Part shown: piece by piece, positions 25,867 to 44,192 of the stretch | Position numbering within the stretch: the stretch's first letter is position 1 | How the letters are laid out: the number at the start of each line of letters is the position of its first letter | Assembly (NCBI GenBank): GCA_947478455.1 | Contig: CANJWR010000004.1 | Span: 1-64,000, forward strand | DNA: 64,000 bases | Source of the DNA: Beijerinckiaceae bacterium | Lineage (GTDB): Bacteria > Pseudomonadota > Alphaproteobacteria > Rhizobiales > Beijerinckiaceae | Direction: 5' to 3' | Position numbers and translations under genes: made by a program | Notes under the pieces: generated by a model | What the model saw: only the letters and a program-made list of their open reading frames with translations | Databases searched by the model: none | Told to the model about the DNA's origin: nothing

Positions 25867-27417
25867 ATGACATCGCAAAAATGGTTGCGTCTGATGGGCG
25901 CTGCTGCGCTCGGCGCACTCGCAAGCGCCCCCGCACTGGCGCAAAAATCTCAGGATACTTTGCGGATCGGGGCCTATCAGCCCATCGCGATCATTGATGC
26001 GCTCTGGGATCCGCAGCCGCAGAGCAATCTGATGGACCGCGTGGTGTTCGACACGCTGGTGGTGTTCGACGTCGACAATCGCAAGATCCTGCCGAGCATT
26101 GCGGAATCGTGGTCGCAGATCGATCCGCTTACTTACGAGTTCAAACTCCGCAAGGATGTGAAGTTCCACAATGGCGATCCGATGGACGCCGACGATGTGG
26201 TCTATTCGGTGAAATACGCCATCGATCCTGAATCGAAGTTCCGTTTCAAGGAACAACGTTTCGGCCAGTTCGCGTCGGTCGAGAAGGTCGATCAATATAC
26301 GGTGCGGATCAAGACGAAGACGCCTTTCGCGCCGTTCCTCGCACGCCTGACGACCATCCTGCCGATCCTGCCGGCGAAATATCATTCGGCCCTGCCGGAC
26401 AAGGCAGCGTTCGGTCGCGCGCCCATCGGCACCGGCCCCTACAAGGCCACGCAGGTCGATCCCAACAAGGGCGTGATCCTCGTCAAGAACCCCGACTTCA
26501 AATGGGGTAATGCGGGCCAGCCCACCGCAAAGATCGGCAAGATCGTCTTCACGCCGGTGCCGGATGCGCAGACGCAGGTGGCGCGGATGATGGTCGGCGA
26601 ACAGGACCTCATGTACGACGTGCAGAAAGACGTTGCGGACTTCCTGAAGCAGAATCCCGCGCTCGATTTGTCCGTTCGCCCGTCCATCCAGTTCACCTAT
26701 CTGGCGCTGGACGCCATGGGCCGCACCGCTACGACGCCGTTCAAGGACAAGCGCGTGCGCGAGGCCGTGATGCGCGCCATCGACCGTCAGGCAATTGCTG
26801 ATGCGCTGCTGCCGAAGGAGATTGCGTCGGCGCCGTTCCAGCTCGGCATGTGCCACCCGTGGCATATTGCGTGCGCGACGAGCGTTGCACCGCCGTCCTA
26901 CAATCCCGATCTCGCAAAGAAGCTTCTTGAAGAAGCCGGCGTGAAGGATTTGAAGTTCACCATTGCGGCGTGGGGGCCGTCGCGCGCCGTGGCTGAAGCC
27001 GTCACCGGCCAGTTGCGTCGCGTTGGCATCAACGCGTCGGTTGAGAGCCTCACCATCAACGCCTTTGTGGGCAAGCGTCAGGCGGGGCAGCTCGAGTCCT
27101 TCCTCGTGCTGTGGGACAATGGCGGCGGCGCACCGGACGTCGAATCGACGGCAGGCTTCTTCTACGAGCCGGGCGACCGCAACTACAACGGCGACAAGTC
27201 GCTCTCTGAACTGATGGAAAAGGGCCAGAGCGAACTCGATCCGGCCAAGCGCGAAGATCTCTATCGCACCATGTTCAACAAGGCGAACGAGGAGCGCTAT
27301 TCCATGCCAATTTCGGCGCTGCCGGCGCTGATCGCGCATTCAAAGGACATCAAGATTCCTGACGGCGGAACCAAGAAGCCCGAAGGCTTCATGTTCAACA
27401 TGTTGGAATGGAAATAG
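25867..27417 (+). CDS. ABC transporter substrate-binding protein, family 5 (peptide/nickel type)
   Basis: DTLVVFDVDNRKILPSIAESWSQIDPLTYEFKLRKDVKFHNGDPMDADDVVYSV. Confidence 0.92.
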   Translation: MTSQKWLRLMGAAALGALASAPALAQKSQDTLRIGAYQPIAIIDALWDPQPQSNLMDRVVFDTLVVFDVDNRKILPSIAESWSQIDPLTYEFKLRKDVKFHNGDPMDADDVVYSVKYAIDPESKFRFKEQRFGQFASVEKVDQYTVRIKTKTPFAPFLARLTTILPILPAKYHSALPDKAAFGRAPIGTGPYKATQVDPNKGVILVKNPDFKWGNAGQPTAKIGKIVFTPVPDAQTQVARMMVGEQDLMYDVQKDVADFLKQNPALDLSVRPSIQFTYLALDAMGRTATTPFKDKRVREAVMRAIDRQAIADALLPKEIASAPFQLGMCHPWHIACATSVAPPSYNPDLAKKLLEEAGVKDLKFTIAAWGPSRAVAEAVTGQLRRVGINASVESLTINAFVGKRQAGQLESFLVLWDNGGGAPDVESTAGFFYEPGDRNYNGDKSLSELMEKGQSELDPAKREDLYRTMFNKANEERYSMPISALPALIAHSKDIKIPDGGTKKPEGFMFNMLEWK

Positions 27418-27525: not shown

Positions 27526-28182
27526 TCACGCTGCGACGATCTGACCGTCCCGAAGGTGTATGCGTTTGCCTGTCACGCGTGCCAGAAAATCCTCGTCGTG
27601 AGAAATCACCATCAGGGTCTGGGGCAGGGCGACCAGAATATCGGTGAGGCGCGCCTCGGTCTCGGCGTCGAGCGCATTGGTGGGCTCGTCGAGCAGCAGC
27701 ACATCGGGCTCCATGGCCAGCACCGCCGCCAGCGCCACGAGTCTGCGCTGACCGCCCGACAATTTATGTGTGATGCGGGTCTCGAAGCCCTCAAGCCCGA
27801 GTGACGATAGGGTGCGGCGCACGATGGCGCGCGCTTCCAGCGCGGTCTTGCCGAGGTTGAGCGGCCCGAAGGCGACGTCTTCCGCCACGGTGGGGCAGAA
27901 AAGCTGGTCGTCTGAATCCTGAAACAGCAATCCGGCGCGGGCGCGGACTTCGACAAAATCCTTCTCGGCATTGCGGATTTTGCCGAAGGCCTCGATGGTT
28001 CCCGACTGCGGGCGCTGCAGGCCAACCATCAGGTGAAACAGGGTCGTCTTGCCCGCGCCGTTGCGGCCTACAAGCGCGATGCGTTCGCCGCGACGCAATT
28101 CGAAATTCGCTTCGCGCAGAACGACGCGCTGTTTGTCGTAGGCGAAATGAACGCCGGCGAGCCGGAACAAAACCTCGCTCAC
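27526..28182 (-). CDS. nikO: ECF nickel/cobalt transporter ATPase (NikO/CbiO)
   Basis: LVGRNGAGKTTLF, LSGGQRRLVALA, VLLLDEPTNALD; operon context. Confidence 0.85.
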   Translation of the reverse strand: MSEVLFRLAGVHFAYDKQRVVLREANFELRRGERIALVGRNGAGKTTLFHLMVGLQRPQSGTIEAFGKIRNAEKDFVEVRARAGLLFQDSDDQLFCPTVAEDVAFGPLNLGKTALEARAIVRRTLSSLGLEGFETRITHKLSGGQRRLVALAAVLAMEPDVLLLDEPTNALDAETEARLTDILVALPQTLMVISHDEDFLARVTGKRIHLRDGQIVAA

Positions 28183-28976
28183 GCATGCTCCAGAGTGAAC
28201 AGCGCGATGCAGGCTGCAAACGACACAAGCGCAAAGGCGCGATCGGCGCCGCGCACAGTCTGCACATCAGCGAGCGATGGCAGGCGGCCCTGAAAGCCCC
28301 GGCAACGCATGGCGGCCACGATGCGCTCGGAGCGCTCGATGCTGCGGATCATCAACATGCCGAACAGAAAACCTACGCTGCGCCATGTGTGCCAGTTGCA
28401 CCGCATGGTGAAACCGCGCGCCCGCATGGAGGTGCGCAGGCGGCGATATTCGCGGCCCAGGACCTCGATGTAGCGAACCGTGAATAGAAACAGATGCACG
28501 AATTTTTCCGGCGCGCGCAGGCCCGCCATGGCGTGACCGAGTTCGACCTGTTCCATCGTGCCCAGAAGCGCGAGGATCATCAGCACGACAGCGTTCGATT
28601 TCAAAAGAATTTCGATGGCGCGCGTCAGTCCTTCGTGGCTTGCCTCAAATCCCCAGATCGCAAACAGGGGCGAACCGGGAGTCGTAAAAGGCAGCAGGGC
28701 CAGAACGAAAAACATGAAACCGTCGAGCGACGCCATGCGCCTGAACGTTGCGCCCGGTTCAAGCCGCGCCGCCAGCGCCGCCCCGATGGCTAGCCCCAGT
28801 GCGGCCAGCAGGCCCGGCAGATGCGAGAGGCTGACAGTCGCAAGCGCGAACGCCATGCAGACGAGCAGTCGCACGCGAGGATCGATCATGCGCAGCAGCG
28901 GCGGCGTCTGGCGTGGCGCGTCGCATTCATCGTCGGCGTGCGCGATGGTGGATGATGTCTGTTCGGGACGCGTCAC
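28179..28976 (-). CDS. nikQ: ECF nickel/cobalt transporter T component (NikQ/CbiQ)
   Basis: Hydrophobic protein with the T-component signature region (LRTSMRARGF...MRCRGFQG). Confidence 0.88.
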   Translation of the reverse strand: MTRPEQTSSTIAHADDECDAPRQTPPLLRMIDPRVRLLVCMAFALATVSLSHLPGLLAALGLAIGAALAARLEPGATFRRMASLDGFMFFVLALLPFTTPGSPLFAIWGFEASHEGLTRAIEILLKSNAVVLMILALLGTMEQVELGHAMAGLRAPEKFVHLFLFTVRYIEVLGREYRRLRTSMRARGFTMRCNWHTWRSVGFLFGMLMIRSIERSERIVAAMRCRGFQGRLPSLADVQTVRGADRAFALVSFAACIALFTLEHA

Positions 28977-29587
28977 CGGCGCGCCTCCTTCATGGCGGAG
29001 GAGGCTTGCGGCTTGCTGCGGCGATTGGCCGAAAGGCCGTATGCGAGGCCTGCGAGGCCGATAATATAGCCGAGACCGCCCAGTACATCGTGCAGCCAGA
29101 CCTTCTCCTGCCAGGCGTCGATCTGTTCGCGCAACGGGCGAAGCTGGTGGGCGACGCCCTGCTCGACCATGGCGCGAATCTCGGCTGAAGAAACATCGCC
29201 CTTTGCGGTTTGCGCCTGCGGGGCAGGCGTCGCGGCGATTGCGGGCGCGGCGCCTGCGCCCGGCAATGTATCGGGCAATTCGGCTGCGGCGATCCTGTAG
29301 GTCGCCACATGACCGTCTCCGGCGTCGAGTGTGAATACATGATCGGCCCGCGTCTGCGCCACAAAAGCGAACTCGCCTTCCGCATTTGTCCGGAGTGTAG
29401 CCAGCACGCGTCCGTCCGGCAGAGTCACGGAAACTGCGGAATCCTGCGCCCTTCCGCCTGGTGCGAAATAGCCGTAGCCGGAGATCTCGGCCCCGATGGC
29501 GGTGGCGAAGACTTTCAGTTTGTGCGCCAGCGCGGGTGGCGCGCAGATCGTCAGGGCAAGAGCCAGAATCGCGAGGCGCTTACGCAT
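28973..29587 (-). CDS. nikL: NikL/CbiL-like accessory component of nickel/cobalt ECF transporter
   Basis: AHKLKVFATAIGAEISGYGYFAPGGRAQDSAVSVTLPDGRVLATLRTNAEGEFAF plus C-terminal TM; between T and S component genes. Confidence 0.75.
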   Translation of the reverse strand: MRKRLAILALALTICAPPALAHKLKVFATAIGAEISGYGYFAPGGRAQDSAVSVTLPDGRVLATLRTNAEGEFAFVAQTRADHVFTLDAGDGHVATYRIAAAELPDTLPGAGAAPAIAATPAPQAQTAKGDVSSAEIRAMVEQGVAHQLRPLREQIDAWQEKVWLHDVLGGLGYIIGLAGLAYGLSANRRSKPQASSAMKEARR

Positions 29588-30209
29588 AGGACGCCTCCTG
29601 CGGTTCGGGCATGCCGAGAAATTCCGGCTTCACGCGCAGAAGCAGGCTGACGGCGGCAGCCGTGAAGGCGGACTCGATGGCCATGACGGGCAGATGGGCG
29701 AACAGGGTGAGGCGCGCGGCCGCGTCGAATTCCTTGCCGGATAGGGCAAGAGAGCCCGCGACCATCAGGGCGGTGAGAATTACGCCGAGACCGCCCGCGA
29801 GCGCGGCGGCGAGGATCGAGAGTTTGCGACTGTCGCGTCGTCCGATAGCGGCAAACAGCGCGTAGCAAAGCAGGGCCGGCACGGCCATGTTCATGGCGTT
29901 GACGCCCAGCACCACCAGTCCGCCGAAGCCGAACAGAACGGCCTGCAAAAGCAGCGCCACCACAATGGCCGGAAAGGCCGTCCAGCCCAGTGCGACGCCC
30001 ACCAGACCATTCAGAATCAAATGGACCGACGAGGGCCCGACCGGGAAATGCACCAGCGACGCGACGAAAAACACCGAGGACAGCATGGCGGTCCGGGGGA
30101 TTTTTTCGTGATCGAGGGCGCGCAACCCGATGGCGCATCCGGCCAGAGTCACGGCTACGCCGGTCGCCAGGACCGGGGCAGACAGAACTCCATCCGGGAT
30201 ATGCGCCAC
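29580..30209 (-). CDS. nikM: ECF nickel/cobalt transporter S component (NikM/CbiM)
   Basis: MAHIPDGVLSAPVLATG...VHFPVGPSSVHLILNGLVGVALGW; GTG start. Confidence 0.92.
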   Translation of the reverse strand: MAHIPDGVLSAPVLATGVAVTLAGCAIGLRALDHEKIPRTAMLSSVFFVASLVHFPVGPSSVHLILNGLVGVALGWTAFPAIVVALLLQAVLFGFGGLVVLGVNAMNMAVPALLCYALFAAIGRRDSRKLSILAAALAGGLGVILTALMVAGSLALSGKEFDAAARLTLFAHLPVMAIESAFTAAAVSLLLRVKPEFLGMPEPQEASYA

Positions 30210-30313: not shown

Positions 30314-31075
30314 TCATTTCAGATCGACCGCCTTCACCCACATGGTTCCGCCGATTTCCGCGTCGGCCTGCTTGCCGTCAGGGCCGGTGATTTTTCCGTC
30401 CACCAGCACGTTGAGGCCCCACCAGCCGGCGCGCGGAATCGCATAGGCGAAGACGCCGTTCTGGTCGGCCTTCACCACCTGTGTGGTGAACGGATCGGAC
30501 GGAACCTTGATCTTTGCGTCGTTGATCCATTCGATTTCGATAGTGGCGTAAGGCAGGGGTTGCCCGTCCTTCAGGGCGATTCCGCGAAACAGATTGCCGG
30601 TCCACAGGCCGTAGGGGCGCGTGAGCGGGCGGATTTCGACCGGCGCGCCGACCAGCGCATCCCATTGATCGCCTGCGCCAAAATCCACCACCACCTTGGT
30701 GTGATGGACGAGGAAGTGCTTTTCGGCGGCGTCCCAGTAGGGGGCGGGGTTGAGATAGAAAACATAGTCGCCCGGCTTGCCGAATTTATAGCTCGCCTCG
30801 AAGGCCTTCCGGCCGTCGATGGTTTTGGGCGCAAGGCTGGCGCGAAGATCGATCTTCTTGCCGTCCGCCAGAACTCCGAACTCGACCGGCTGCCCCATAT
30901 CCATCACCGGTCCGCCCTCGACCGGATGGGTAAAGGTGAGGGACAGCTTCACCGAGTGATCGCCCTCGTCGGGCACGATGTCCGTGGAGGGGATGAGTTC
31001 CTGAAAATGTGCGGATGCGGGGGCCGCGAGGGCCAGCCAGATTGCCAATGAGGCTGCAAGTGGTCGCCGGGGCAA
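30314..31075 (-). CDS. nikK: DUF4198 / NikK-like periplasmic protein
   Basis: AHFQELIPSTDIVPDEGDHSVKLSLTFTHPVEGGPVMDMGQPVEFGV...; probable TTG start at 31075 behind AGGGAGGG. The ORF-track start at 31102 lies inside the operator palindrome. Confidence 0.82.
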   Translation of the reverse strand: MPRRPLAASLAIWLALAAPASAHFQELIPSTDIVPDEGDHSVKLSLTFTHPVEGGPVMDMGQPVEFGVLADGKKIDLRASLAPKTIDGRKAFEASYKFGKPGDYVFYLNPAPYWDAAEKHFLVHHTKVVVDFGAGDQWDALVGAPVEIRPLTRPYGLWTGNLFRGIALKDGQPLPYATIEIEWINDAKIKVPSDPFTTQVVKADQNGVFAYAIPRAGWWGLNVLVDGKITGPDGKQADAEIGGTMWVKAVDLK

Positions 31076-31081
31076 CGGTCC

Positions 31082-31121
31082 CTCCCTGTATGATGAATAC
31101 ATAAATTCATCATACAGGGAG
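31082..31121. promoter_or_regulatory. NikR operator candidate: 17-bp perfect inverted repeat with 6-nt spacer
   Basis: CTCCCTGTATGATGAAT-ACATAA-ATTCATCATACAGGGAG; contains GTATGA-N16-TCATAC (31088-31115). Confidence 0.88.
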
Positions 31122-31231
31122 ATGAGTCAAGTCGTTCGACGGCAGTGATTCAGGGATTGGAAATCTGGACCAGCGGGATCTTTTGGGAGACCGTGCCAAT
31201 CCTTATGGTCGCTCCGGCTGGAGATGCATGC

Positions 31232-44040: not shown

Positions 44041-44130
44041 GTGCGGCAACTTTGTTGCTGCCGATGCCCTCCTTGGGCGTTTCCTCCCTAGACTTGGGCC
44101 GCCTGTGAAAACGGGCGGCCTCCTTTCTTT
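44041..44130 (+). ncRNA. mmgR: mmgR/suhB-family (alpha-r8) trans-acting sRNA candidate
   Basis: gcggcaactttgttgctgcc hairpin, GCCCTCCTTGGGC hairpin, single-stranded TTTCCTCCCT, then GGGCCGCC..GGGCGGCC-T-rich terminator; plausible -35 CTTGCT and -10 CATATTAT upstream. Confidence 0.78.
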
Positions 44131-44192
44131 CCGGGGCAGGGTTATCCCTTAACGCTCAGTTTGTGCCGACGTCAGTTTCAGACGCGCTCCGC

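Follow-up and report, generated by a model that had tools for sequence, protein, structure and literature searches.

The locus raises the question of whether a long palindrome in front of an operon for nickel import is the binding site of a NikR repressor, and whether its presence identifies the operon as regulated by nickel. The features that bear on this question, with their coordinates in the window (the whole 64,000-nucleotide stretch of DNA that was analysed), are:

27526–28182, minus strand: nikO, ECF ATPase (Pfam PF00005; best NCBIfam match TIGR01166, cbiO, below its cut-off)
28179–28976, minus strand: nikQ, ECF T component (Pfam PF02361; TIGR02454 above cut-off)
28973–29587, minus strand: nikL (NCBIfam NF058648, "NikL family", E=1e-53, above cut-off)
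29580–30209, minus strand: nikM, substrate component of the CbiM/NikM family (Pfam PF01891, E=1e-55; NCBIfam NF004905 above cut-off)
30314–31075, minus strand: nikK, DUF4198 (Pfam PF10670, E=4e-52; start predicted from relatives, mechanical open reading frame extending to 31102)
31080–31087, minus strand: Shine-Dalgarno sequence AGGGAGGG, read from the sequence, overlapping the end of the repeat
31082–31121, no strand: 17-bp perfect inverted repeat with a 6-nt centre (repeat search and expectation from composition)
31088–31115, no strand: NikR-type operator core GTATGA-N16-TCATAC (exact, unique in the genome, position before nikK conserved in the genus)
31125–31130, minus strand: putative -35 hexamer TTGACT, 9 bp upstream of the operator (from conservation in the nearest nikK relatives)

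The genes nikK, nikM, nikL, nikQ and nikO are adjacent and follow the K-M-L-Q-O order of NikKMLQO transporters; the assignment of NikO combines an ABC_tran match with the place of the gene in the operon. The same five-gene ECF transporter is present in Brucella abortus, where experiments showed it to be a nickel transporter required for full urease activity, which added nickel restored (PMC2868824). The B. abortus genes sit in the ure2 operon, and the authors report no NikR-binding site there (PMC2868824). The genome studied here carries a gene for the urease alpha subunit, and urease is present in 45 of the 51 genomes of the genus. Matches to [NiFe]-hydrogenase were not counted; with the exception of one genome of the genus, they were short and did not reach the family cut-off. 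Convergent with nikO is a gene for a family-5 solute-binding protein (25867–27417, plus strand), whose best NCBIfam match is nikA (TIGR02294), far below the model cut-off. The same genome contains a second, diverged NikK-like gene of the DUF4198 type (L096:1498–2346; G000:C135:11388–12167), with no relatives of nikM, nikL, nikQ or nikO within the fetched locus and no operator-like site. The window also contains an Rfam match to the suhB/mmgR small RNA (44059–44135, plus strand, 72.4 bits).

The palindrome is a perfect inverted repeat, as a preliminary description of this DNA had claimed: its 17-bp arms (31082–31098 and 31105–31121) are 100% complementary. It is the longest perfect hairpin-type repeat of the window, the runner-up having arms of 11 bp, and about 0.00016 repeats of 17-bp length (loops of 3–20) are expected from the base composition. 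The operator core inside it matches exactly that of E. coli NikR at nikABCDE, with half-sites GTATGA and TCATAC 16 bp apart (PMC7055735), so the E. coli spacing ascribed to it earlier was correct. A search for further exact sites, which the same description had proposed, returned 31088–31115 as the only match in the 4.6-Mb genome and none for the reversed control pattern; the relaxed pattern KTATGW-N16-WCATAM also found this site alone. With two mismatches allowed, the genome contains 32 sites compared with 32 for the control, which is no excess, and these were left uncounted.

The placement of the repeat just upstream of nikK holds in that it lies on the nikKMLQO promoter, but the operon is on the minus strand, and the repeat end overlaps the Shine-Dalgarno sequence instead of lying beside it. 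An operator-like site with the same spacing precedes nikK in all 21 cases examined in the genus, each with three or fewer mismatches in the 12 core positions. The mean is 1.5 mismatches compared with 5.0 in dinucleotide shuffles, with single-locus p values from <0.005 to 0.035. The sites are located just before the start of nikK, and in one genome (G047) before an FmdE-like gene that precedes nikK. Half-sites and spacing are conserved among the relatives; the long 17-bp arms generally are not, and several of the sites are non-palindromic inside. In the nikK subgroup nearest to the window, TTGACW or a form with one mismatch lies 7–12 bp upstream of the site, which would place the -10 region and the start within the palindrome. 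A generic sigma-70 scan detected no promoter, and the -35 hexamer was therefore assigned from its conservation. The nikK start is probably the TTG at 31073–31075 and not the ATG at 31100–31102 within the palindrome. From the exact half-sites and the conserved location at promoters of nickel uptake, we infer that 31082–31121 is a genuine regulatory site, of the type that NikR recognises, at the promoter of an operon for nickel import. Taken alone, the operator is an ordinary NikR site, and it is the regulator that is unusual. The operator shows the regulator family and does not by itself identify the signal.

The preliminary description had also called for a search for nikR, and the genome encodes a single protein with a NikR_C domain (L002:1345–1809), unlinked to the operon, on a different contig beside soxG. 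The protein aligns over its length with E. coli NikR and matches PF08753 (E=3e-23) and NCBIfam NF002815 above its cut-off, and TIGR02793 below its cut-off. An RHH_1 match marks the ribbon-helix-helix DNA-binding domain, which has the DNA-reading strand, QRLTIS here and QRVTIT in E. coli, in which R3 and T5 are kept and T7 is replaced by serine. The AlphaFold model of the monomer (mean pLDDT 70.5, pTM 0.51) matches the chains of E. coli NikR, which supports the fold only and says nothing about a metal site between subunits. Nickel in the E. coli structure is coordinated by three residues of one subunit (H87, H89 and C95) and by H76 of a second subunit (PMC7055735). The protein studied here keeps H76 and C95, but both H87 and H89 are arginines (RxR in place of HxH), H62 is replaced by tyrosine and H123 by phenylalanine, and there is a histidine-rich C-terminal tail. 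It also differs from its E. coli counterpart in its target, nikKMLQO, and in the unlinked position of its gene. No convincing operator was found in front of nikR. A functional link with the adjacent sarcosine-oxidase genes was considered and dropped, because soxG adjoins nikR in only four of 45 relatives. Judged by its sequence, the RxR protein belongs to the NikR family by descent and is not of the His3Cys type.

The substitutions extend to the whole genus. NikR_C occurs once per genome in 47 of the 51 genomes, and a second, canonical copy was never found; the other four have no match, and among them G038, which is 83% complete, still carries a site upstream of nikK. All 47 proteins combine R87 and R89 with H76 and C95, and none has the complete His3Cys site (H76, H87, H89, C95). 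The arginines are encoded by varying synonymous codons, three for R87 and all six for R89, a pattern that rules out sequencing error and indicates selection to maintain both residues. Position 62 is tyrosine in 45 of 46 genus sequences and histidine in 49/49 HxH NikRs, and position 123 is phenylalanine in 46/46, compared with histidine or tyrosine in HxH NikRs. H76, H79, D80, D91, H92 and C95 are invariant in the genus. With two of the four ligands missing from the high-affinity nickel site, a response to nickel is not implied. The operator and the regulon are of NikR type, but this pattern of residues makes it unsafe to assume that the RxR NikR senses through the classical His3Cys site.

The His3Cys site has been described as conserved among NikR homologues (PMC9860126), and most NikR-bearing genera of the family keep HxH. 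In genus g40, two proteins (L114, L116) have QxR and retain H76 and C95; a single species of genus g9 (G230, L140) has QxP and has lost both H76 and C95. Elsewhere in the class, a degenerate NikR-like protein (L222, G280) has altered strand ligands and has also lost H76 and C95. A separate NikR_C subfamily with the sequence SRISLSLSE (L121-type: L115, L128, L129, L138) keeps HxH, with H76 changed to arginine or leucine and C95 to threonine. When the two trait columns were left out of the tree, the RxR sequences grouped as a single clade (support 100) at the end of a long stem and separate from QxR, and the tree requires three changes. Few columns were available for it, and the program cautions that the placement of the long stem may be wrong. 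Among 385 genomes sampled across the class, no RxR protein was detected outside the genus. Peptide patterns derived from the RxR alignment were also scanned against 84,980 species genomes, an approach that would miss divergent forms; this gave 45 loci of 60–93% identity, labelled Beijerinckiaceae, Rhizobiales or similar, plus one distant match (L186), which has HxH. A search of an open-access library of papers found no report of a NikR with arginine at both strand positions.

The operator itself is shared with the canonical HxH NikRs of other genera of the family, most of which keep His3Cys. Across a sample of the family, genomes with the exact site tend to have NikR as well (20 of 22 genomes with the site, compared with 50 of 199 overall; p=5e-12). 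The site elsewhere in the family is mostly near nikR, 120–210 bp away, and in 11 genomes with a canonical HxH NikR it is 123–212 bp from the NikR_C match, whereas in the genus of the window it stands at uptake operons that are not near nikR, and arginines replace the strand histidines.

Fourteen of the 51 genomes of the genus contain one exact site each. Those away from nikK precede TonB-dependent receptors (L042, L043, L047), an ExbB-like gene (L044), a divergent pair of genes for a solute-binding protein and a TonB receptor (L046), and an FmdE-like gene (L052). One exact site, in G025 (L050), lies within a terminator-like hairpin followed by a T run and was taken as a chance match. The regulon of Helicobacter pylori NikR likewise includes TonB-type receptors and exbB/exbD (PMC7055735); HpNikR differs from the genus of the window in having a complete His3Cys site and a recognition sequence that is loosely conserved (PMC9860126). 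Many genomes of the genus with an RxR NikR have neither a nikK of the window type nor an exact site. FmdE-like proteins with an N-terminal signal-like stretch are found repeatedly behind NikR-type sites or beside nikK (L052:1002–1487, L054:1499–2041, L045:2–454), and possibly belong to the metal-uptake set. In a second nikK subgroup (L078, L081, L082, L083, L084), the operators have drifted to a shared form, approximately [GT]TATGTA...TTCATA[AC], which suggests a shifted half-site preference within the genus.

We consider it slightly better than an even chance that the single NikR-family repressor of the genus acts at the palindrome and continues to regulate nickel uptake, by way of a remodelled metal site. 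The palindrome is assigned to the RxR NikR because the protein retains the DNA-reading strand, the operator persists, and the genomes of the genus yielded no second NikR. The repressor would bind 31082–31121 as its operator. The palindrome appears to straddle the -10 and start region of the nikKMLQO promoter, so that bound repressor would exclude RNA polymerase, switch nikKMLQO off and shut nickel uptake by promoter occlusion. The remodelled metal site may be built on H76 and C95 together with other invariant residues (H79, D91, H92) or with the histidine-rich tail. A remodelled site is favoured because no NikR of the genus has lost H76 or C95, whereas the degenerate proteins of G230 and G280 lost both residues along with the strand histidines. 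Against this explanation, nikR is unlinked to the operon and four of the 51 genomes lack a NikR match.

A serious rival to the remodelled metal site, although we regard it as rather unlikely, is a repressor that works independently of metal or answers to a new ligand. The RxR NikR would then bind the operator without sensing nickel, either constitutively, with the arginine pair mimicking the metal-bound state, or in response to another ligand of the C-terminal domain. The joint replacement of H62, H87, H89 and H123 on the long stem branch points in this direction, as does the separate loss of the strand histidines in genus g40. The invariance of H76 and C95 in 47/47 proteins would be unexpected if the site had no metal role, and the targets are still metal-uptake genes. 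It is also conceivable, since the genome of the window is 92% complete and in 317 contigs, that a classical NikR absent from the assembly controls the operon and that the RxR protein does something else. This is extremely improbable given that every one of the 47 NikR-bearing genomes of the genus, several of them 99–100% complete, has exactly one NikR_C match, and this match is RxR.

The remaining alternatives concern the site and the transporter. Folded as RNA, the repeat is strongly stable (-38.2 kcal/mol, z -5.0), and it contains the Shine-Dalgarno sequence of nikK, which a hairpin could hide. Conservation of half-sites and spacing without the long arms fits a protein operator over the promoter better than an RNA hairpin, and with the putative -35 hexamer transcription would start inside the repeat, so that the hairpin would not be transcribed whole; we consider control by a hairpin very improbable. 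Equally improbable is that the transporter serves cobalt under the control of cobalamin. Some NikKMLQO versions of alpha- and gammaproteobacteria are linked to B12 genes or B12 riboswitches, and some NikK1ML1QO operons, for example in Rhodopseudomonas palustris, lie beside the former or behind the latter (PMC2667541), but the window has no match to a cobalamin riboswitch at the gathering threshold, no B12 gene was found among the neighbours examined, and the NikR-type site is present. The earlier claim that the operon is nickel-regulated rather than cobalamin-regulated is therefore only partly sustained. The NikR-type operator, the presence of nikR and urease, and the lack of a riboswitch in the window agree with it; nickel control is not established from the operator, because the sole NikR homologue has arginine at two of the four nickel-ligand positions.

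What makes this system interesting is the variant of the regulator. A broader interpretation, to which we give somewhat less than an even chance, is that throughout the genus a clade of NikR proteins has abandoned the classical nickel site and kept the DNA-reading strand, the operator and the metal-uptake regulon, its effector having changed to another ligand, another metal or geometry, or metal-free repression. The findings are a warning that nickel regulation should not be called from an operator or a NikR annotation alone. A lineage in which two ligands are fixed as arginine while operator and regulon persist makes the parts of NikR needed for nickel sensing directly testable. If the broader interpretation is true, the RxR clade would be a natural example of a metalloregulator with a changed effector and an unchanged regulon.
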